The notes under the pieces: generated by a model
What the model saw: the letters and a program-made list of their open reading frames with translations, nothing else
What the model was told of the DNA's origin: nothing
The model's database searches: none
From: Stachybotrys elegans
Lineage: Eukaryota; Ascomycota; Sordariomycetes; Hypocreales; Stachybotryaceae
Assembly: GCA_020746835.1 (NCBI GenBank)
Contig: JAGPNK010000006.1
Span: 496,001-560,000, forward strand
Direction: 5' to 3'
DNA: 64,000 nucleotides
Part shown: positions 1-64,000 of the stretch, piece after piece
Numbering within the stretch: the stretch's first letter is position 1
Layout of the letters: each line of letters opens with the position of its first letter
Made by a program: the position numbers and the translations under genes

Positions 1-3000
1 GAGGCCATGACGATAGGACGCGTGGTAAACAGAAAGGTTAATAAAGGCAACGTTGGTCTAGGCTACTTGGACCACCCGCCAGTGGGGATACCGATGTGCT
101 GGGACGCCTCGTGTCGTCAGGTCCCTCCTACGGACTGCATCGTGGCAACACGAAAGCTGTAGGTGGCCAACGTCAGAGCGTTGCGCTGGAGATGACAAGA
201 AGGGGAGGGGGGGTGATGGCAATAAGAAAATAAAAAGTAAAAAAAGCCGAGGCAACGTTGCCCACCGGGATAGCATAGCTGATAGCATCATCAACATTTC
301 CTCGGCACGTCTTTGCAGCATACTATTGGATCGCACTATTGCACCACTGCTTGAGGCTCATTTCGGTCATGGCGGGCAGGCTCTGTAGGCGTATCCGTGT
401 GCATGAGCCGGGCCACATGGCGACAGCTGTGTATGTACGGATACCGCACAGCTTTCCCAGCAGGTCATAACGTGCCATGGTGCCCAAGCAGGCAGCCACA
501 CACCAGACTCGGGTTAGGGCATCGGGGATCAGGGGGGCTGCCCAGCTGACCAGGTCCGCGGGGCAGCGTAGCCTTTGCGTGTCCAAGGGCTGGGTCAGCT
601 ACCGTTTGCGGATGCTAGGGGGGGTTGGACAGGTGTGCCTGGGGCTGAAAACCAGGTGTGTGCCTGTCTAGTCAGCAGCTCGCCAAGGTGCTGGCCGATA
701 TCCAGCTGCCAGTCCATACGATCCCTGCCAATGGGCTCGCCTCCTTGCCTGATACCAGCCTGGCTTGCGCACGCACACGGGGAGTTGATCCCGATGCCAG
801 GGCGGGCGGGAGCGAATGGAAGAGCTGCCGCAGGTCCAGATTGGGTCGAGTTGAAACACGCATTCCAAGTTGGAAGAGCAGCTGTCATCCACTCGTTTGT
901 GCGTCGACGGCAGTTGTTTGATCTTGGATAGTAAGCTGTTGCATGGAGTAGCGATACATACATGATCAGCGTGGGTGGACAAGGCAGAAAGAAGATGGAT
1001 GGGGCGTGTAGACAAAGACGACAGCCTTCAAAACAGGCTGTTTGACAACGCCTCCCGCGACCAATGCAGGAACTTGCACATTCGGCTGTAGAGGACTTTG
1101 TCAACCTGCGACGCCGCCGTTGCCGTTGCCGCTGGTAGACAGTTTTAAAATTACCAGCAAATATACCAGCCAAGCAATCAACGCATATCTGTCCCGTGCT
1201 CTGTGTCTTCCAATCTATTGTACTTTATTTCGCACAGGCAGGTCCCGGGTAATGAAGGAGGAAATGAGCAAGGCAAGGAAATAAATGGCACCAGCCACAT
1301 GGAGTGGCCGTGGCACCACAAACCCACGACATGCAGCCACACAGGGTTGGCAGATGAGCAGGGAAGGAAGGAGGAGGAGGAGGGGAGGGAGGGGCAGGAG
1401 GGGCAAGTCAAGTCACGGAACGGGAACCTGTGCACCACTCAAGTGCTCGTCACGCAGCCTCCAACCATCCATCCATCTCCTATCCTTCCGTCTATCGAGA
1501 AGGTCGAGCAGCGCACCCGGTTTCAGACAGGGTGTCCACGCTCCAATCAGATATTCCCGTGCCCAGATCTCGAGGCCCCTTCATCCAACCTTGAAATGGG
1601 CCAGGAGGCACGGATTCGTGATTACAGCGTTGCGTCCAATACATTAGCCTGGCCATGACATCGGCTGCCACCTTTGAGTCCTTTTTTGCCATGCAGCATC
1701 GAGTATCGGAGAGGCACTCATGACACGAAGCCCGACGAAAGCTAGCCACGCTACAACAGCTAGAACAGCTGCTACGGTATGCAGTCTCCAGCATGGCATG
1801 CAAAGATGCAGAGGTTTTTCCTCATGGCCGAGGCGGTGAACCCGCGGTGACCGAGGCGAGAAGAGCCCAGAGCCAACCAGGCCCATCCACTAGTGATCCT
1901 GACTCCCCACCAGGGCCCGATTTGATCGGCTCCAGGCCCCAGATGCGGGCCCGGCGAACCCTTCCAGCCTTCCTTCCCCACGCCCAACACGCTACAGCCT
2001 AACCCTCTTTGCTCCCTGAGCCAGTCGCATGGTGCCCGGCCGTGTCCCGGTGCCAGCTAGTCATCCACGGCCTGTGGAGAGCAGGTGGCTGGATAGCATA
2101 CCGGCCGCCTGTAAGTGGATGGCAGAAGCAAGCCTTTTTTTCCTTCCAGCGGTGAGTAAGGAGAAATGTGAACCATCTCGACCGGCGGCCTCGCTGGATG
2201 CACGCCCTGCCCCCCTCCCGATCAAAACGTACCCACCAGCCGGAACCGGACGGAGGAGGCTGCGAGTGTATGTACAAAGGGCGGCGATACGGAGGGAATG
2301 GGGACAGAATTCGAGCCATGTGTGATGTGCATCTTCTCAGGGGATAGTGGAGCTTGGAGCAGCCATGGAACGGCGGACTGAGATTTCAAGCAGCAGTCCG
2401 CCACGGCACAGCACGAGGATGGGATCCAACGGAACGTACAAGTGCGAGTCCAAGTGCGAGTGTGATTGTGACGGTGACGGCACCATTCCAAACGGACCAT
2501 GTTCACCCCCTACCTCGTTGTGAAGGATGTAATCAAGTACAGTACCTGGCTACGGAGAGGGACCGACAAGTTCAGTCAACAATTGCCCATCCTCCATACG
2601 ACAGATAACCTTATCAACGCGTGGGTCATGGGCCGTGGGCCATGGGCGTGGCCATGAGCGTGGCCAGGTCAGCCAGCCACTCAAGCAGTCAGTAATGTCG
2701 AGGACTCATGCATGTCTTGGTTTGTTGCCTGCTCAGCTGTCGTGGTGGCCCTGAAATGTTTTGGCAAAAAAGTGGTCGTGCGACGGTCTGGCCGAGCATC
2801 AGGAGGTATCAGTGTTGCATCGTTATCTGGTGAACGTGGAGTAGGTGAGACAAATTTTCACGACGAGGTATACCACATACAAAGTACATACATAGACGGC
2901 AAGGGACGAGGAAGAGGGGGTGGTTCAAGCCGCATCGGGAAAGTCATGGCGCCACGAGATGCTGCATTTCTGCACTGGCGTCGCGCACTGTCTGTCCCAG

Positions 3001-4990
3001 GGGAATTTACTGATGTGTCGTTGGCGGGAGAGAGGGCCACGGCGTTAGTAGCCGGCTGGGTTGTGAGTTGTCTCGCATAGCATGGCATGGCATGGCATGA
3101 CATGACATGGGATCGAATAAACAAAAAGTAATACCGCAGCGACTCGTCACCGCCAAGTAGGCCGGGCGGTCTGTATCCGGCCAAGTGACAGTGCATGACT
3201 CCGACGAGGGCGAGGCAAAATGTGGTTCGGCATAATACCGACCAGTGGTACCGTACGCAGCGGGGACACGAACGGACCAAGAGAGGCGAAAAGAATGCGG
3301 ATGAGTTGGTGTAGATGGGACGAGATGAGAGTACAAGCTTGGCTCCCGTGCGGGATGGGTTCAGAGGAAGCCGATCTATCAAGATGCTAGATGGACATCT
3401 AACCCGATATTGGAATGCACGGACAAGTCTACGGGGTCACACGATGTATTCACTGTGGCCTTTCTTTCTTTTTTTCACTCCCTTCGTTTCTTTTCCTCTC
3501 CTTTCTTTTTGGTCAGTTTAGGCATGAAGGAGGGGTACATAGAGAGCAGAAAGACGGATATGCTTGGTGATGTAGCTGTCTAGGACGAAACATGGCTGCA
3601 CTCTGTTTCGTTTCATGGGGGGGGCACCTTTGGCAACTGGATACTGGAGGGAGATGTTCTCCGCAACAGGGGTTCACGATGTCGGTCGGTAGGTCGGTAG
3701 GTATAGCACGAACGGTGACATGACGAGCCGCGCCAACTCGGTAGACGTGTGCGAGGAATGCGCATGATTTGCATGCCGCTGCTCACCGCCCGTCTATGAT
3801 GAAGTGATTGAATCAAGTCTGTCTGTCAATTGTCAGCCGACAATTCGTCCATTCATTCAATCGGGAGGCTGGCAGCATCCCTGCTAACCACGCCAACCAA
3901 TGTCTCCATCGTCAGGTACCGAATAGAAGGGTGCTATTATGGTAAGGCAGGTATACAGCTGGAGGCGTGCGTGTCTATGTTTTTTTCTTTCTTTTCTTCT
4001 TCTTCCAGCCACCGCTATCTTGGCAAATGAGAGAGCTCGTTTTGGCTGCTAGGTACACGCTCCATACATAGACGAGGACTTGATAAGGTAAAGCACGCAG
4101 CGAGACATGCACACGGGCGGGCCAGGCACGGACAGCATCAAAGGTAGATACGTGTAACACAGCTGGTGGCCCAGAGCGCAAGGTTAGGTGAAATTGCAAG
4201 AGACATGGCAAGCTCTCCTCCAGTCATTGCGCAGCTATGCCCCCCCCACGCAGCCTCCCGCTTACCATCTACGTATGTATAGGCAAGGATGGGCGTGTTT
4301 TGATATTACCAAGGAGAGAGAGTTTGGTTTCGAAAGGAAGGCCAGCAGCAAACCAACGAGCGCGCGCATACAGCATCCATTACCTGCAACACGCAGCCCT
4401 GTGGCCGCGGGCACCCCCTCCTCATTTCGCAAGAGCCTGTGAGAAGCTGCTGGCCGGGCCGGACTGGGGTGAGGGCAATGGTTCGCTCTGGAAAAGGGAT
4501 CTGTGAACCCGTGTTTCATGATGGCGACGCTCTGGACCAATGGCGAGGCCCTGGCGAAGGGAGGGACACCAGCAGCCAGTACGCAGTCGAAAAAAGGTGG
4601 GAACAGTAGGATGCTGGGCTGCCAGCCGCCAGAACGGGTAGCCGAGCCCCCAGGCCAGCCAGTCAGCGCCCGGCGTTGCACGTTTCGTTTGCCCTTCGTA
4701 CCTACATACGGTAGCTTCTATTTTGCCCGTGGGCGACTCGCTGGGCGGCAGCCGGAATAGCCTCTCTGCTTGCCGCCCGCCGCGCTTGTTACAAGGCAAA
4801 AAATAGCAGGCGCGGGTAGCAGAATAGCAGCAAGATTTCACAATGGGCAGTGCAGTGCAGGGGGCTGTCAAAACAACAAAGAAAGGTTCCTTGAGATGTA
4901 TTAAATGGCATTGCATTCCCCGAACGAACAAGAGAAGGAAGATTCACTCACCCTCCTTCGTCCTTTCCCCCCCCCTCCCCGATTAATACA
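1..4990. other. Intergenic region, no gene seen
   Basis: No reading frame in this stretch looks like a conserved protein, and I could not assemble a spliced gene from it. It holds a short ATGGC tandem run (about 3077-3110), homopurine patches (1365-1400) and several G or C runs. It may contain distal promoter sequence for the cyclin gene to its right. The window starts inside it, so a gene end just to the left cannot be excluded. Confidence 0.55.
3077..3110. repeat. ATGGC short tandem repeat
   Basis: Four copies of a 5-nt unit (ATGGC), followed by a degenerate ATGAC variant. It is a minor microsatellite with no coding context. Confidence 0.7.
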
Positions 4991-55568: not shown

Positions 55569-56319
55569 ATGAAGCCTTTGCCCCTCAAGCACTGCATCAT
55601 GACTCAGACCAGCAACCCAACCCCGAACCCTTGGGAGGCACGCGCGCTCGATGTAAGCAGACGACGTATACTCATATGAGGCCCCTTCAACTTTCCACTA
55701 ACTCCTCATTCTTTGGCAGTATCACTTCCCGAATCAGCCTCTCCAGCCCTCCAGCAGCAACTCACAGCCCAACCACAACGGCCAGTGGAGACAGACTCAG
55801 GATCCAGTCATATATCCCGGCCTGTACTCGGCCTCTGGCTTTGACATCTTGAACCTTCTGGTATGTTGGTATTTTCAGATTCTCAGCGTATGCCGCTAAC
55901 ATGTGGTGCAGTTCCAGGTCATTTCTCGTCCCAACCCCAAGATAGAACTAGGACCTGTGGACTCCTCCGTGGCTCTCATTCTATGCGACCTTGAGTCGGC
56001 CGACACCCCCATCGTCTACGTCAATGACTCCTTCTGCCAGCTCACCGGCTACGCCCGCTCCGAGGTCATCGGACGCAACTGTCGCTTTCTTCAGACACCT
56101 CCCAACCTCTCACAACACCATTCTGCCATCCCTGTTGCCGATCAGATGGTTCTTCATCGCCTGAGCCAAGCCGTCAAGGCCCGCGAGGAGATTCAGCTCC
56201 AGGTCGTCAACTACAAGAAGAATGGACGACGCTTCGTCAACATCCTCAGCATCATTCCCGTTGAACTTGGCCCCTCTGGCTACCGCTACGCTGTTGGTTT
56301 CCAGGTCGAAGCCGAGTGA
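55569..56319 (+). CDS. VIVID/ENVOY-type LOV blue-light photoreceptor
   Basis: Three exons: 55569-55652, 55720-55860 and 55912-56319; 210 aa. Both introns are phase 0 (67 and 51 nt) with CTAAC branches. The N-terminus carries NPWE, then SGFDILNLLFQVISRPNPKIELGPVD, which lines up with the N-cap and A-beta strand of Neurospora VVD. The LOV core contains GRNCRFLQ, so Cys132 is the flavin-adduct cysteine; the VVD-type insertion loop after it is present, and the end is KKNGRRFVNILSIIPV then YRYAVGFQVEAE. The protein should bind FAD, dimerise in blue light and damp white-collar signalling (photoadaptation). Translation could also start at the second Met (55,599), which gives the shorter MTQTSNPT start closer to VVD. 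Confidence 0.95.
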
Positions 56320-57195
56320 AGGGACAACCACTCTTGCACAGGAGCCTACTTCTTATTGTTTTCATTTGCAACCGAGCGCGTAACAGAATGGCTCGGGGAG
56401 TTCACCTCATCTTCACTCGCTTCAGGATCATTACTGCGGACGCGTTGGTTTTTGCTATTAGGCACTATGATACCCACAAACTGTCTGCCTTCATTCTTCT
56501 TTCTTCCGTTGATACTAGCGATTTCTTTATTACGACTCAGACATGAGGAGTCAGGCAACGGCCATCGTATGGACCACCACTTAGATTATTAGCATGAGAC
56601 AATTCAGGCGGCGTTTATAGCATAGCGTAGTTCCTTTACATATATATATACGTCGGACAGGTTCCAAATCTTAAACCATCCAAAGAATCCATTAGAGCCA
56701 CATGCGACTCCTTAAGAAATAGCCTTTTGGTCCTATACTTAGCTTCCTAGGCTACTCTTAGATAACAATCAAGGCTACCTTCATAAGATGAAGATAGCCT
56801 TCATCCAGCACATACGACCATACCTACCAGGAAATACGGGGTCCCGTCCGCTCCCCCCTAGTCAAACTGGTAAGGGGCAGATTAGTAGTTGGGTCGGTGA
56901 CGACCAGCGAACACCGGCTGTTGTATGTTTTTGTTCTTTTTGCCATTTTTGGCATCGTAGCTACATGTTATTTGGCTGGCGTGGGTATGGGGAGGTACAA
57001 GACAAGGTGGCATGCGGAAGCCTCAACTTCAGCCGTACCTTCATGAATAAAATGTTGACTTTGTTCAAAAGGGCTCGGATGCTGCCAGCAGATCTTCCTC
57101 ATTGCCGATTGACGTTGACTCTTGCCGGTCGTACATTATCCCCGTCGATGGGTTTTGGGTTTGAGAAGACCCAGCGTCTTCCACCCCAATGCTTT
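56320..57195. other. Convergent 3' region between the LOV gene and the glycosylase
   Basis: Holds the LOV 3' UTR, a TATATATATA run at about 56,641-56,650 and the hairpin listed separately. The frame at 56,788 on the plus strand is antisense to the glycosylase and not real. Confidence 0.6.
56771..56801. terminator. Hairpin in the convergent 3' region
   Basis: Arms of 14 nt (56,771-56,784 and 56,788-56,801) are inverted repeats with one mismatch and a 3-nt AAG loop. In RNA this would fold into a strong stem-loop. It sits 450 bp past the LOV stop and 395 bp past the glycosylase stop. A role in 3' processing is a guess; it could also be a chance palindrome or the end of a small element. Confidence 0.35.
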
Positions 57196-58497
57196 TCAGG
57201 ATCGCCCTCGCCTCCGCTTCCTAGGGCCATCTGCCAGTTTCTCCTCCTTGACTTCATCTTCCTGCTTAGCCGCCTTTGTCCTCTGCCTTTTCAGTGGCGG
57301 CCCCTCGTCAGGCTCCTCCTTGATCTTGGAGCCGGTGCTGCGGCCTCTCCGAACGGCAGGTTTGTCCTCCTCCGGCTCAATGACCTCTGCTTTGGCAGTC
57401 GGGACCACCCTACCCGTCTTCTTCTGCACCGCCGGGGCATAGCAGCTCGTACGCCCACCCACCGTGATAAATGCCAGCTTCTCTCCGTTCGGCAGCTTGT
57501 TTGCGCCCGCCTTGCCGCCCTTGCCCCACCGGTAGTTGAACAGCCAGTGATCGGGAAACTCGTCCGAGTCTCCGAGCTTGTCCACGGCAGTTTGACATAC
57601 ATAGCGGATGTTTTCGTACAACGTCTTGATCTCGGCATCGCTGAACTCGTTGCAATACTGCTCAGGGTGGAATTTTGCTTGGTACAGGGTTTCGTCGGCT
57701 ACCCAGTTGCCAATGCCACTAATCACAGTCTGGTCGAGCAGGAGGGCCTTAATAGGGACACGGCGTGCTCTCATCTTCCCGTGCAGGTACTCCTCGGTGA
57801 ACTCATCCAAATCGATGACAGGATCGGGTCCGTTTTCCACTAGGGGCGAGTGCTGCCGGATGTCATCTCCTGGGCAATGGACGAGCCGTACTCGTCCGAT
57901 TCTCCGGGGGTCGGTAAAGGCAACCTCTACCCCATCCCTTCCCTCGGTTTTGAGGTGAAACTTCCAGAATTTCGGTGGCCAGGCCTCCATTTCGCTCTCC
58001 TTCATCTTCTTGTAGTAGTTGGTGTAGGCTGTCTTCTCGCCTCGTATGTGAACCCACCCTATACACGTCAGCTGTAAGGCATACAGTTGCGATAAATACA
58101 CGTACCTGTCATCCCGAAATGCATGACTAAATGAGGGGGCTTCTCCAATGTGATCCTGCACATCCATTAGCTGAAGTACACGAGATGGCTGACTGGTGAC
58201 ATACCAAAAATATTTGCCCTGGCTCCCTGCTGAGACGACCTGCTGGCTCAGCTAGACGTCCCTCTGATGCGGGTCAATGAACCTACCTTTTTCCCCTTCA
58301 GAGCCTCCTCCACCTCCGGGCCACTCGTACCAACTTTTCCAAAGACATTGGTGTCTTCAATGGCGGCAACGGTAGCTATGCGCTTGCCCACTAAAGATTG
58401 GCGCAGGAAGTGGACGATCCGCGCAACTATCAAACTGGTCAACCGTATTCTCGTGTAAACCGTTGGATTCGTCATTACCTTCTGCGATCTCAGGCAT
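57196..58497 (-). CDS. Fpg/Nei-family DNA glycosylase (formamidopyrimidine-DNA glycosylase)
   Basis: Five exons: 58497-58479 (19 nt), 58426-58287, 58239-58205, 58155-58106 and 58058-57196; 368 aa. The four introns are 47-52 nt. The 19-nt first exon encodes MPEIAE, so the catalytic Pro2 and Glu3 sit alone there. Further landmarks are the conserved Lys62 in GKYFW, MHFGMTGWVHI, DPRRIGRVRLV, a helix-two-turn-helix region (IKALLLDQTVISGIGNWVADE), and VGGRTSCYAPAVQKKTG, a zincless-finger hairpin with Arg284 instead of four cysteines. The basic tail (KRQRTKAAK, KRRRGRS) should target the nucleus. The enzyme excises oxidised bases such as 8-oxoG and FapyG, with beta/delta-elimination. It is divergent from the snoRNA host gene. 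Confidence 0.92.
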
Positions 58498-58740
58498 CTT
58501 TCGGGAGTGAGGTAAAGATAGCTAAAACTCGAATGGAGGGCCAAGATGCTTCGCCTGATGGACGGTCATCGGCTCTCCCCCTAATGACGGGGCCGCGCCC
58601 TGGCGATGGCAACCACGTGAAATGAAGGGCGCTAGAACCCAATTCGTCACGATATTGACACGACAACCCGTGACTTTGGATTACCTAATGACCCATCTTC
58701 CCCACCAAAAGATTGTATTTTCTTCGCAGCTTTTTTTCTG
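58498..58740. promoter_or_regulatory. Shared promoter region of the glycosylase and the snoRNA host gene
   Basis: About 240 bp separate the glycosylase ATG (minus strand) from the pyrimidine-rich start of the snoRNA host transcript (plus strand), so both are likely driven from one short divergent promoter. No TATA box is obvious. Confidence 0.45.
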
Positions 58741-58833
58741 AGCTCTGAATTTTCTCTCTTTGTTCTTCACCAACAATGTGAGCTTCAAGGTATGCGAATC
58801 TTCTCGTTCTGCTTCTCTCTTCCTCCCCTTTGT

Positions 58834-58907
58834 ATGATGACACACCAAACCGCAAACTAGAGTCTTTGACCTCTTGGAATGAAACCAACATTTTCACGTC
58901 AGTCTGA
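58834..58907 (+). ncRNA. C/D-box snoRNA 1
   Basis: Box C ATGATGA (58,834-58,840) and box D CTGA (58,904-58,907) delimit 74 nt. Bases 58,853-58,864, just upstream of a TTGA D'-like box (58,866-58,869), are complementary over 12 nt to the conserved GACUCUAGUUUG segment of 25S/28S rRNA, as I remember it. Under the +5 rule the target would be the U after GAC. I do not know a yeast methylation there, so the target is tentative while the snoRNA itself is well supported. Confidence 0.7.
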
Positions 58908-59077
58908 AATACGACTGTTTCGCATCACATTCTGCAGACAACATGCCAGAATGCTTGCTAATGCGACTGCAGATTTTGCCGCCTCTTGGCTGGCCCGAAG
59001 CCTCTTCACATGGTACGATGATGGCCTACGCGCCATTGGGTAAGTCAAATTTCTCTCTACTCATCCCGCACCCTGTT

Positions 59078-59158
59078 ATGATGATCATTTTCTTTACAAT
59101 ATACGCTGGAAATTACCGACTGAGATCTTCCTTGACGATATTAAATGGCTTTGTCTGA
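59078..59158 (+). ncRNA. C/D-box snoRNA 2, snR77-like (18S U578 guide)
   Basis: Box C ATGATGA (59,078-59,084), D' CTGA (59,120-59,123), C' TGACGA (59,133-59,138) and D CTGA (59,155-59,158). The bases before D' pair with 18S rRNA around CGGUAAUU: eight base pairs (guide 59,111-59,118), a one-base bulge, then five more. The fifth base upstream of D' (A at 59,115) pairs with the U of CGGUAA, which is U578 in yeast numbering, the snR77 target (from memory). Confidence 0.8.
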
Positions 59159-59272
59159 TTACACTCGCCCTGTTTACATTGTTGCTGCCCTCTCCCTCCA
59201 AGGCTCTTGACTGACCTTTGCAAAGACTTAGTAAGGTACGATACATAGCGATTCCTTCCATCGCCTCATCAA

Positions 59273-59354
59273 ATGATGAACTGGCACTGGGCTCCGAACA
59301 AAGCATGAGTCGATAAGCCATTTTGCGGCAGGCCTAGAAAACCTCGCCCACTGA
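59273..59354 (+). ncRNA. C/D-box snoRNA 3, target unresolved
   Basis: Box C ATGATGA (59,273-59,279) and box D CTGA (59,351-59,354), 82 nt. A D'-like CCGA lies at 59,294-59,297, preceded by GCACTGGGC, complementary over 9 nt to a conserved 25S segment (GCCCAGUGC). Nine bases can match by chance, so no target is claimed. By position in the cluster it would correspond to yeast snR76. Confidence 0.6.
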
Positions 59355-59505
59355 TCGAGCAATCCTCTACATACATTTGTCGAATCAAGCTGCTCGAACA
59401 AGCATTGACCGGCTACAGTATCGTAGACTCATGCATCATGCAAGAATGAGTGTCTCGTTGGACCATGTGGTAGGTTTTCTTGTTCTTTCAACCCATCCAA
59501 GCATT

Positions 59506-59583
59506 CTGATGATTCAGATGACGAGTCTTATTCGAGTTTTCGATGCAGACACCATATTTACCTACCATTCATGCATTACCTGA
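59506..59583 (+). ncRNA. C/D-box snoRNA 4, target unresolved
   Basis: Box C CTGATGA (59,506-59,512) and box D CTGA (59,580-59,583), 78 nt, within its own intron with a GTAGGT donor and TTTCTCAG acceptor. I could not find a guide that fits the +5 rule. Position in the cluster would match yeast snR75. Confidence 0.55.
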
Positions 59584-59703
59584 CTTTGCCATTCATCACT
59601 TCCTCTTTTGCCAGTCGGTCGCATTCAGTCACTGACTTTTCTCAGACGTCCACAAATTAACTGTAAGTTGATGCTGCATGCACTCCTCCACCACCATCAT
59701 CGT

Positions 59704-59778
59704 ATGATGAATGCGAATAAAAGACAAGCATATGTCCGAGCTTCGCTTTGAAGAGAAACTATCCGCATATCCTTCTGA
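59704..59778 (+). ncRNA. C/D-box snoRNA 5, snR74-like (18S A28 guide)
   Basis: Box C ATGATGA (59,704-59,710), D' CCGA (59,736-59,739) and D CTGA (59,775-59,778). Bases 59,722-59,734 are perfectly complementary over 13 nt to the 5' end of 18S rRNA (CAUAUGCUUGUCU). The fifth base upstream of D' (T at 59,731) pairs exactly with A28 in yeast numbering, the snR74 target (from memory). Confidence 0.85.
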
Positions 59779-59905
59779 CTAGATGGATCATTCCTCGACA
59801 CTCTGGACTCAGTGTATGGCAACCAGCTGACTGAAGCCAGCGTAATGCCTCATACTATGAGACAAAGGTTAGTCAGAACACCCTCCAACCCTGCACTAGA
59901 ATTAT

Positions 59906-59984
59906 ATGATGTTACAATATCACGACGGTCAACTTAGCCATATGCTCTGATGATAACGCCTGTGACAAGGCATTTTATCCCTGA
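59906..59984 (+). ncRNA. C/D-box snoRNA 6, target unresolved
   Basis: Box C ATGATGT (59,906-59,912, one deviation), D' CTGA (59,947-59,950) overlapping C' TGATGA (59,949-59,954), and D CTGA (59,981-59,984). Spacing to donor and acceptor (38 and 66 nt) matches the other members. No rRNA target was identified; position would match yeast snR73. Confidence 0.6.
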
Positions 59985-60127
59985 TATTCGTGTCTTCCCG
60001 ATCTTCTGTTATGTGTGCTTGTCCATGACTGCCGCTAACTCAATCAATAGGTTTCATAAATGTGCCTTCACATTGCCAGAGGTTCACTTGCCTTTCCCGA
60101 CAACCTGAACCGTCAGGAGCTTGCTCG

Positions 60128-60702
60128 GTAAGGATGTTAGAAGAAGCACTTGTGCCGACCATAGGCCACTTGTCACGAGCCGCCCCCGGCTTATTATGAG
60201 ACACACGTTTGGATGCCTGAACACGGCGTAGTACGAGCCATTGGTCCTAGCTGGGATGCGCACCACCCATGCGATTCAAGCGGATCGCATTTGGATGACA
60301 TGGCATATCCATCAAGCTGCAATCAGGTCCGATGCGACTGGACTGGAGGCAAACCATTGTGATAGTGTGAGCCCTGCCTGGATACCCTTCCAGTTGGCTG
60401 CCCGGGGTTGAGTACTAAACGTATATACAAGCGCGTTGTAATCAAGTAGTATGTGGGCAGAAATGTTGGAAACTATCAATACAAAGAAGTGCCATTTCCA
60501 TCCAGTCCATCTCTCCCAGTGTTGTGCTCTTGAATGGTTATTGTACCAAACATGTTCATCGTAAGTCGTTCATCGCTTTACATACATAGGAACCGTGACC
60601 CGCTGACAGCCTTCTCGTCAGCCTTGAAAGAAGAGATTGCCTTGTCCCATCTGGACAGGCCGCCTGGCGTATACAACGCCACTTGCTACTAAAGGGTGAT
60701 AT
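60128..60702. other. Region between the snoRNA host gene and the Clr5 gene
   Basis: May hold the 3' end of the host transcript and the 3' UTR of the convergent Clr5-domain gene. I looked for a seventh snoRNA (a box C followed by CTGA at 70-85 nt) and found none that convinced me. Confidence 0.45.
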
Positions 60703-61722
60703 TCACCAAGTGCCCACGTTGGATATGGCGGCGCTTGAGCTTTGTGATGAACCAAGATCCAAAGTCTCCCGATACGCCGGCACAAGCTGCGGAGAGGGCG
60801 CATCGTTGGCGCGCAACTGTTGTACGCTGTCGCTGGTGTCGCTACCGGTGTAGGAGGCCGTGTCGGATCTGTAGTAGCCCCAGCCGGTATGGTCCATGTA
60901 CTGAGGCAGCCGGGCAGGGACTTGCAGATACGAGGCAGCCGGCTCCTCACCTCGACTCGCGGGCGGCGACATGTGGCTACAGCAGACGGAATTAGCGGGC
61001 GTTGGGGCCCAGGATGGGAGTTGGCACATACTGCGAGCCACTGCTGCTTCCCCAATTCGCGGACCGGCCGTCGTGGAAGTGCCAGCTGCCGGGGTCGGTC
61101 ATGGTACCTCCTGTCCTGTGGTGATGATGATGGTGATTATGGGGTCCCTGGTGGTGGCCCCAGCGATGGCTTGTGCTGGGATAGACGTCGCCTCCGGGCG
61201 GACTGGGCAACGTCGGCAGGGAGAGGCGATGGCCACCGCGGTAGAAGGAGTTGGAGTCGAGCCTGTGGGCACGATAGCCGTCGTCCGAGTGCCTCCTGAT
61301 GGCGTAGCTGTACTCGCTGTGAGAGAGGCCGGCAAAGGGGCGACTGCTCTTGAGGGCGGAGGAGGAGAGCATAGGCGTCTTGGGAGGAGAGGAGGAGGAA
61401 GCTGATGAGAGCATGTCGGTGATGGAGGAGCGGCGCTGCTGCCTCTTCTTGCAATTGTACTTGCCAACGCCCCAATCGTCAAAGTGCTGGCGATAGGACC
61501 GTATGCTAGATGGGCGTGTCAGTCTTTGTCTGATGACGGGGCGTGCCATGGAGTTGACAGCAAGAAGGGTACGGGAGAAGGGGGGGGGGGGGGGGTTCGG
61601 CCTTACGAAGCTTCAAAGCCATGGCGTTGGCGCATGATTTCCTTGACATCATGGAGTGTCCGGCCTTCCTGGATGTATAGGCGGACAATCTCCTGGCGGA
61701 ACTCCTTCCAGGGCTTCGTCAT
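60703..61722 (-). CDS. Clr5-domain protein
   Basis: Three exons: 61722-61607, 61505-61032 and 60976-60703; 287 aa. Intron 1 (101 nt, donor GTAAGG, CTGAC branch) holds a C16 tract; intron 2 is 55 nt (donor GTATGT, branch GCTAAT, acceptor TGTAG). The Clr5 domain (PF14420) fills residues 1-60: WKEFRQEIVRLYIQEGRTLHDVKEIMRQRHGF then YRQHFDDWGVGKYNCKKR. The rest is Ser/Pro/His-rich and disordered, with a poly-His patch (NHHHHHHR). Skipping intron 2 would end the protein after 209 residues, but the last exon reads well (SYLQVPARLPQYMDHTGWGYY) and stays in frame. The domain is common in filamentous fungi, often fused to ankyrin or other modules; its role is not established. It may bind DNA. Confidence 0.87.
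61580..61595. repeat. G16 homopolymer inside intron 1 of the Clr5 gene
   Basis: In the sense of the gene this is C16, starting at the twelfth nucleotide of the intron. Confidence 0.9.
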
Positions 61723-64000
61723 GGCGGCGGTTAGCGGGAGGTGAGGTCCGTTGGCGGAGAGGTGATGTTTCCGTGTGTATATATTTTTGTGGCGCGCGCA
61801 AGGGACAAGATCCTTCGATGAGATGAGGAAGATGATGGTGAAGATGGGATGAGGGAACGTGCGAGGCGAGAAGGAGACCAAGGAAGGACCAACAAGGTGA
61901 ATAGGAAGAAATAAAATAGAAAACGGGAATGGATAGGTCAATGGGCTCAGGAGGCTCAGGAGGCGAGGAAGAAGTTGGGGGGGTATAAGAAGCTAAAACC
62001 GAAGAAAGGGAAAGGGTGGGAATCAAGTGCTGTTAGATGATTCCAAGTCGGGCTCTGAAGAAGAGAGCAGCATACTCATATCATGCCAATGGGCTGGGCT
62101 GGCTATCTTTGCTGTTGGCCATGTGTGTTGTATGTATGCGAGTGCGTCTCTGTCTGCATATGTAAGTGTATGTTGGTTGTGTGGCTCCCCCCCCCCTCTC
62201 CCCCGATAACTTGCCACGGCTGGCTTCCCCTTGGCCCCCCTTGTAACCCGACCTCTCTATCTGTCTATCTCTTTTTGGGGTGTTTATATTTATGTCCCTG
62301 CTTCACAATTGCAAATCGGACGCGGCAGAAGAGGGGGGGGGGGGGGGGACAAGGCGACGAATCAAGCAGAGACGGCAAGGACAACTTTGGGGGCCAAAGG
62401 GGTGCGTCAGCCTTGATTCAGGCTCTGGGGGATGCCCCCCTTCGACCGCTTTGGGGGCTGAATGGACTTTGCCGCCCCTCTCGTCTTGTTCATTCCCCTC
62501 CCCTTTCCCCCATCTTCTGCCATGTATTGGTTTGCTCTTGTATCTGGTGTGGTTTGCTACAGGCGTCGAGGCATATGTCTGCTCCCCGTCCTCGGGCAAG
62601 TCTAGACACAAAACCGAAGAAGAGATAAGGGGGGGGGGGATGCGGCTCAGCTGTGCTCATGGTGACGCAGCCTTGCGGTCTCCTGGTGAGAGCTAGCTCC
62701 TCCGTCTGGTGTTTCTGTGTGACGTTGCAGGGATGCGAGGAGGAGAGGAGGACACCACCAGGACGTCACTTGAGGCGGACGAAGCAGGTGGGAGGGTCGG
62801 GCTGGCTATCTTTGTTCCTCCGGAAGATAGTATCTATGTGCGGTTATAAGCCCGGCCGAGCTTCTAAAAACCGCCCGCGGTTGTCTCCAGTCGTGGCATG
62901 GTACATGAGGAAACAAAGGTACTGCGGTTGGGGGCCAAGACGGGGGGACACGTCGTATGGTAGAGTTGCACTCGCAACAGAAAAATAAAATAAAAAATAG
63001 CCAGGCACAAAGAGATGGAAATAGAGGAATAGAGGGATAGCAGAGAGGAGTCGACGGCTAGGTCCGCTCGTCGGGATGCCCCCCCCTCCATCATGATCCG
63101 CGCACCACCACAGCCTGCCTGCATGCCTTGTTGTCTGCCGCCCCGTCTTTTTTTTCCCCCTCCCCGGGGCAGGCAGGCAGGCATTCAGAGAGAGAGACAC
63201 GGCTGCATGTTCCAAGTCACCAGGTACCTACCATTCAGCCTCACGGGGCTACATCTTGCACCGCCTGGATGGGCGGCGGGAAAGGAGGGACCTCCCGGAG
63301 GCGGGGTGGCACGGCAGACGTGCAAAAAAAAAAGAGAGGTGTTTTGAAACGAAACAAAATATGGATCGCATCATGTTTGAAAATCCCATGGAGCTGTGCA
63401 TGCGGAGAAAAAAGGAAAATGCTTGCTCGATAGCCTGCGGGGGGGGAGGATGAGGTTGAGGTTGAGGTTGAGGTCGATGCCTTACAGGGCACATTTGTGC
63501 AGACCGGTCGGACGCCTTTTTCGGTAGGACGCCTGCATGTCTCTCCTTCTCTCTCTCTGTCTCCCTCTTGGTGCATTGCGATTGCCTCGGGCAGTGCCCT
63601 GGTGCATCGCGTGCGGGCGTCGCTGCAAAACCCCGGGCGAATCAATCCACGAGTAGAAATCTTGCCCAGCTCGACTCCAAGGTGCCCGCAAAGAATGGGA
63701 AATCAAAAGGAGGAAGAATAAATGCTGCTATTTTTTGTTTGGGGCTATACAATGCACGCACATTGCCCGCGCCGCGCCGCAGCACGTTACCGAGACTCCA
63801 CTTGCCTGGCCCGATGGCGCCCCGCAACGATCCGCAAGCAGTAATCAGTGTGGCAAGCACAGATATAGAAGGAAGCACCTTTGCCTTGCCTACCCTGTGG
63901 TTTGATCATCGACAAGGTAGTCGATTAACCATTCCTACCAGGTCGGAAACAAAATATTGTGATACAGCGGGTGAGATTTCTCTTTCAATGCGGATATCTT
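61723..64000. other. Upstream region of the Clr5 gene, no further gene seen
   Basis: Pyrimidine-rich on the minus strand for the first several hundred bases, consistent with a long leader and promoter of the Clr5 gene. It contains a G16 tract (62,333-62,348) and a GAGGTT tandem repeat (about 63,446-63,474). The window ends without a further recognisable coding segment. Confidence 0.5.
62333..62348. repeat. G16 homopolymer
   Basis: Intergenic, or in the leader of the Clr5 gene. No splice donor is close by on the minus strand. Confidence 0.9.

Follow-up and report, generated by a model that had tools for sequence, protein, structure and literature searches.

We identified, on the forward strand of a 64-kb window of the Stachybotrys elegans genome (the whole 64,000-nucleotide stretch analyzed), a locus that is almost certainly the Hypocreales orthologue of fungal snoRNA gene cluster I, with a seven-exon non-coding host and six intronic snoRNAs predicted to guide seven rRNA sites (Table 1). 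The sequence-only reading of this DNA had proposed a spliced host transcript of the UHG/GAS5 kind, and that interpretation is supported, as the Rfam matches, the order of the snoRNAs and the splice anatomy fit published cluster I. It missed the identity of the gene, which is the known cluster I already described in many related fungi. Mammalian UHG and GAS5 are non-coding spliced hosts with one C/D snoRNA per intron, and the likeness of the host predicted here to these genes is an analogy of layout.

Table 1. Predicted host gene and snoRNAs of the S. elegans locus. Internal exons are predicted from splice signals. Introns are called by sequence only, run from the donor to the end of the acceptor, and each holds one snoRNA between canonical splice signals. 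Scores are in bits, with the Rfam gathering threshold in brackets. The rRNA targets (yeast numbering) are those that we take to apply.
Feature	Positions	Strand	Length (nt)	Box C; box D (CTGA)	Presumed target	Remarks
Exon 1	58741..58789	+				transcript start 58741 assumed in the sequence-only reading
Intron 1	58790..58972	+	183			GTATGC...CTGCAG
C/D snoRNA 1, snR78/snR72 double guide	58834..58907	+		ATGATGA/T at 58834; 58904	25S Um2421 (D') and Am876 (D)	RF00295 snoTBR7, 24.3 (45); guides
Exon 2	58973..59039	+	67
Intron 2	59040..59231	+	192
C/D snoRNA 2, snR77 / Afu_300	59074..59160	+		ATGATGA/T at 59078; 59155	18S Um578	RF01509, 87.4 (40)
Exon 3	59232..59235	+	4			TAAG; predicted micro-exon or near-juxtaposed introns
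Intron 3	59236..59418	+	183
C/D snoRNA 3, snR76 / Afu_513	59269..59356	+		ATGATGA/T at 59273; 59351	25S Cm2197	RF01514, 80.0 (48)
Exon 4	59419..59469	+	51
Intron 4	59470..59645	+	176
C/D snoRNA 4, snR75	59504..59585	+		CTGATGA at 59506; 59580	25S Gm2288	RF01185, 71.6 (40)
Exon 5	59646..59662	+	17
Intron 5	59663..59840	+	178
C/D snoRNA 5, snR74 / U27	59698..59785	+		ATGATGA/T at 59704; 59775	18S Am28	RF00086 SNORD27, 30.1 (52); guide
Exon 6	59841..59867	+	27
Intron 6	59868..60050	+	183			branch GCTAAC
C/D snoRNA 6, snR73	59902..59986	+		ATGATGA/T at 59906; 59981	25S Cm2959	RF01207, 36.8 (37); guide
Exon 7	60051..60250	+				60250 is the end of the scripted model rather than a mapped 3' end

The six C/D-box units lie where they had originally been placed, at intervals of 244, 195, 233, 198 and 202 nt, and a sequence scan found every unit (6/6) framed by a donor and a branch/acceptor pair, as had been proposed. 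Box C follows the donor (37-45 nt from the donor to TGATGA), and the distance from the end of box D to the acceptor is 65, 73, 64, 62, 62 and 66 nt in units 1-6, thus falling within the proposed 62-66 nt in five of the six. When the combined pattern of donor, box C, box D, branch and acceptor was scanned across the 64-kb window, six matches were obtained on the + strand, all at the snoRNA locus, and none on the - strand. The full framed pattern occurred on average 0.025 times, and at most twice, in 2000 dinucleotide shuffles of positions 58700-60200; these chance figures are somewhat flattering, since the distance ranges of the scan were fixed once the locus had been inspected. Pairs of C and D boxes that lack splice signals say much less than the full framed pattern: there are 10 on the + strand and 8 on the - strand of the whole window, six of these lying in the snoRNA region against a shuffle mean of 0.53 and maximum of 4. 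The Rfam matches do not depend on the distance limits of the scan and therefore provide the independent support.

Scanning the whole window with cmscan at Rfam gathering thresholds gave four matches, namely 5S rRNA, Afu_300, Afu_513 and snR75. A permissive search of positions 58200-60700 listed 12 matches, with six lower ones of the same clans left out. Among the 12 listed, unit 2 also matches the related families snoR77Y and snR54, unit 3 also matches RF01209 snR76 (39.4 bits, gathering 55), and the sole match of unit 1 is the trypanosome family snoTBR7, below its cut-off. Matches to mir-9416, SNORD12 and snoR35 (- strand) were taken as chance (E 2.7-3.8). Rfam scores are weak for units 1 and 5; units 2-4 are thus identified by Rfam and unit 6 nearly so, whereas the identities of units 1 and 5 are based mainly on the guide. 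In the snR76 homologue, positions 59327-59349 before box D are nearly identical to the Afu_513 consensus of Rfam, and GGCCUAGAAAACC within this segment matches the snR76 consensus too. The known target of snR76, Cm2197, is addressed by the D' guide, although it is the segment before box D that is so well matched to the consensus. The families RF01185, RF01509, RF01514 and RF01207 have one match each in the 43.4-Mb, 61-contig assembly, all at this locus, among the best 50-56 of 1341-4209 first-look candidates that were scored for the four families; the single match of RF01207 is below its cut-off. A DNA search of the same assembly with positions 58741-60140 returned one match, the query itself.

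Guides were compared with fragments taken to represent S. cerevisiae rRNA, and all pairings with 18S and 25S below refer to these yeast fragments. The longest Watson-Crick runs of units 1-6 are 12, 10, 9, 10, 13 and 11 pairs, compared with 7 or 8 for their reverse complements. Runs of these lengths were reached in 0, 9, 32, 15, 0 and 3 of 300 shuffles of the respective units, so that run length alone is no proof of the guides of units 3, 4, 2 and 6. The longest run adjoins the D' box in all units but unit 2 (5/6). Unit 1 forms 12 pairs at Um2421, and its Am876 guide, 5' of box D, has just 8 pairs; the two guides fit both snR78 and snR72, which would place the Euascomycete snR78/72 double guide in the first intron. 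In unit 2, the stretch by D' forms 8 contiguous pairs with 18S by eye and is interrupted by an extra A that it shares with the Rfam Afu_300 consensus, whereas the 10-pair run lies farther upstream and is not the methylation guide. Unit 5 has 13 contiguous pairs to the 5' end of 18S, and unit 6 has 11 pairs to its 25S site. The D' boxes were selected by eye, in knowledge of the sites expected. On this basis, the guide base given by the D/D'+5 rule can pair with the base expected to be methylated at six of the seven sites as scripted; the remaining site, Gm2288 of unit 4, fits D'+5 when the CTTA at 59527 is taken as D', one base after the scripted position. All units thus possess C and D boxes and a guide that follows the D/D'+5 rule, unit 4 upon this re-reading of its D' box.

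The neighboring divergent gene encodes a formamidopyrimidine-DNA glycosylase. Among the 120 listed of its 1673 matches, the best is a protein from Stachybotrys elegans with 86% identity; the named relatives recognized in the list are Hypocreales and other Sordariomycetes. Because the nearest relative of this neighbor is from Stachybotrys elegans, the locus is probably a Hypocreales orthologue of cluster I. Other features of the surroundings include a 5S rRNA gene (56810-56929, 90.7 bits) that precedes the host gene by ∼1.8 kb on its upstream side, a PAS-domain open frame (55900-56316, + strand) with a GRNCRFLQ motif of the type that characterizes LOV photoreceptors (e.g. Vivid/ENVOY), and a Clr5-domain open frame (61606-61992, - strand). 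No tRNA genes were found in the window by ARAGORN. Plasmid records searched at the nucleotide level yielded a single match with E 0.4, taken as chance. A scan with a bacterial promoter/terminator model, which is inapplicable to a fungus, gave one promoter-like and one terminator-like site, fewer than in shuffled sequence (means 3.7 and 1.4).

Cluster I is defined as snR78-snR77-snR76-snR75-snR74-snR73-snR72 in Luo 2013 (PMC3596301), which also describes the recombination of Euascomycete snR78 and snR72 into a single snR78/72 intron and cluster host RNAs that are without long ORFs after splicing. The S. elegans locus has the same snoRNAs on one strand in the published Euascomycete order, snR78/72-snR77-snR76-snR75-snR74-snR73 (units 1 and 5 being assigned mainly by their guides to the yeast rRNA fragments), each in a predicted intron, and its predicted host likewise has no long ORF. 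Liu 2009 (PMC2780460) reports six C/D clusters in N. crassa, five of them conserved with yeast; the hosts are likened there to UHG and gas5, and clusters I and II are described as alternatively spliced. Homologues of our units, CD5, CD24, CD12, CD7, CD21 and CD31, appear in Table 1 of that study as intronic snoRNAs of chromosome VI, together with the homologous methylation sites, and we infer that they form one N. crassa cluster. The Neurospora clusters resemble the S. elegans locus in their homologous snoRNAs and, as predicted for our locus, in UHG-like hosts with short ORFs only, and unit 1 is comparable to both CD5 and the snR78/72 of Luo 2013. A difference concerns CD24, the snR77 homologue, whose U5 guide reported in Liu 2009 has no counterpart in unit 2: against the U5 of the S. 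elegans genome itself, the longest Watson-Crick run is 6, and within the D-guide part it is 5. In T. rubrum, a SNORD52/U52 and an snR77 homologue lie within 2 kb on one supercontig, according to a study of that species.

The spliced exons might instead encode a small protein, the snoRNAs merely riding in its introns, and in the spliced model (58741-60250) one frame, counted from the assumed start, indeed runs for 61 codons without a stop. However, this frame contains no ATG ahead of its final 17 codons, its 61 residues have no Pfam match at E<=1, and of the frames that begin with ATG in the spliced model up to 60250, the longest has 26 codons. The assumed transcript has its first ATG at 58776, directly followed by TGA, with positions 58776-58781 forming a minimal start-stop ORF. 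A protein-coding host was set aside on the lack of an early ATG, the 26-codon maximum and the missing Pfam match, and we consider it extremely improbable.

A further possibility is an unspliced polycistron cut by an endonuclease, as in Saccharomyces cerevisiae, where this enzyme is Rnt1/RNase III; the splice-like signals would then be chance or relics. Unspliced primary transcripts are the source of these clusters in S. cerevisiae and its close relatives, whereas in Euascomycetes every snoRNA of clusters I-III is reported to lie in an intron (Luo 2013, PMC3596301), and mature cluster transcripts of Neurospora were cloned as RT-PCR products (Liu 2009, PMC2780460). Moreover, donor, branch and acceptor recur at regular distances in 6/6 units of our locus. 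Given these regular signals and the intronic published relatives, we set the unspliced polycistron aside as very improbable. For a spliced cluster I host, by analogy with the published relatives, RNA polymerase II would make one host transcript, from which the spliceosome would take out six introns; each intron would then be debranched and trimmed to one box C/D snoRNA in its snoRNP, and the snoRNPs would guide 2'-O-methylation at the seven rRNA sites.

Compared with cluster I as presented in Luo 2013 (PMC3596301), the S. elegans locus adds a further species and has an exon 3 predicted at 4 nt. This exon is the one unusual detail of the locus, and internal exons of the clusters that are small or lost have already been published in the same study. 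Its size makes it possible that introns 2 and 3 are forced into a fixed order of removal, or are excised jointly as a single intron with both snR77 and snR76 inside, which we nevertheless regard as rather unlikely. If true, the output of snR77 and snR76 would be tied to one splicing decision, and introns 2 and 3 around exon 3 would offer a natural test of micro-exon splicing.

No general view is changed by this locus, since the gene and its organization have been in print since 2009-2013. It provides the positions of six snoRNAs that would escape an annotation based on proteins, and it indicates that this lineage has kept the ancient cluster I in its intronic form, with the full set of Euascomycete units.
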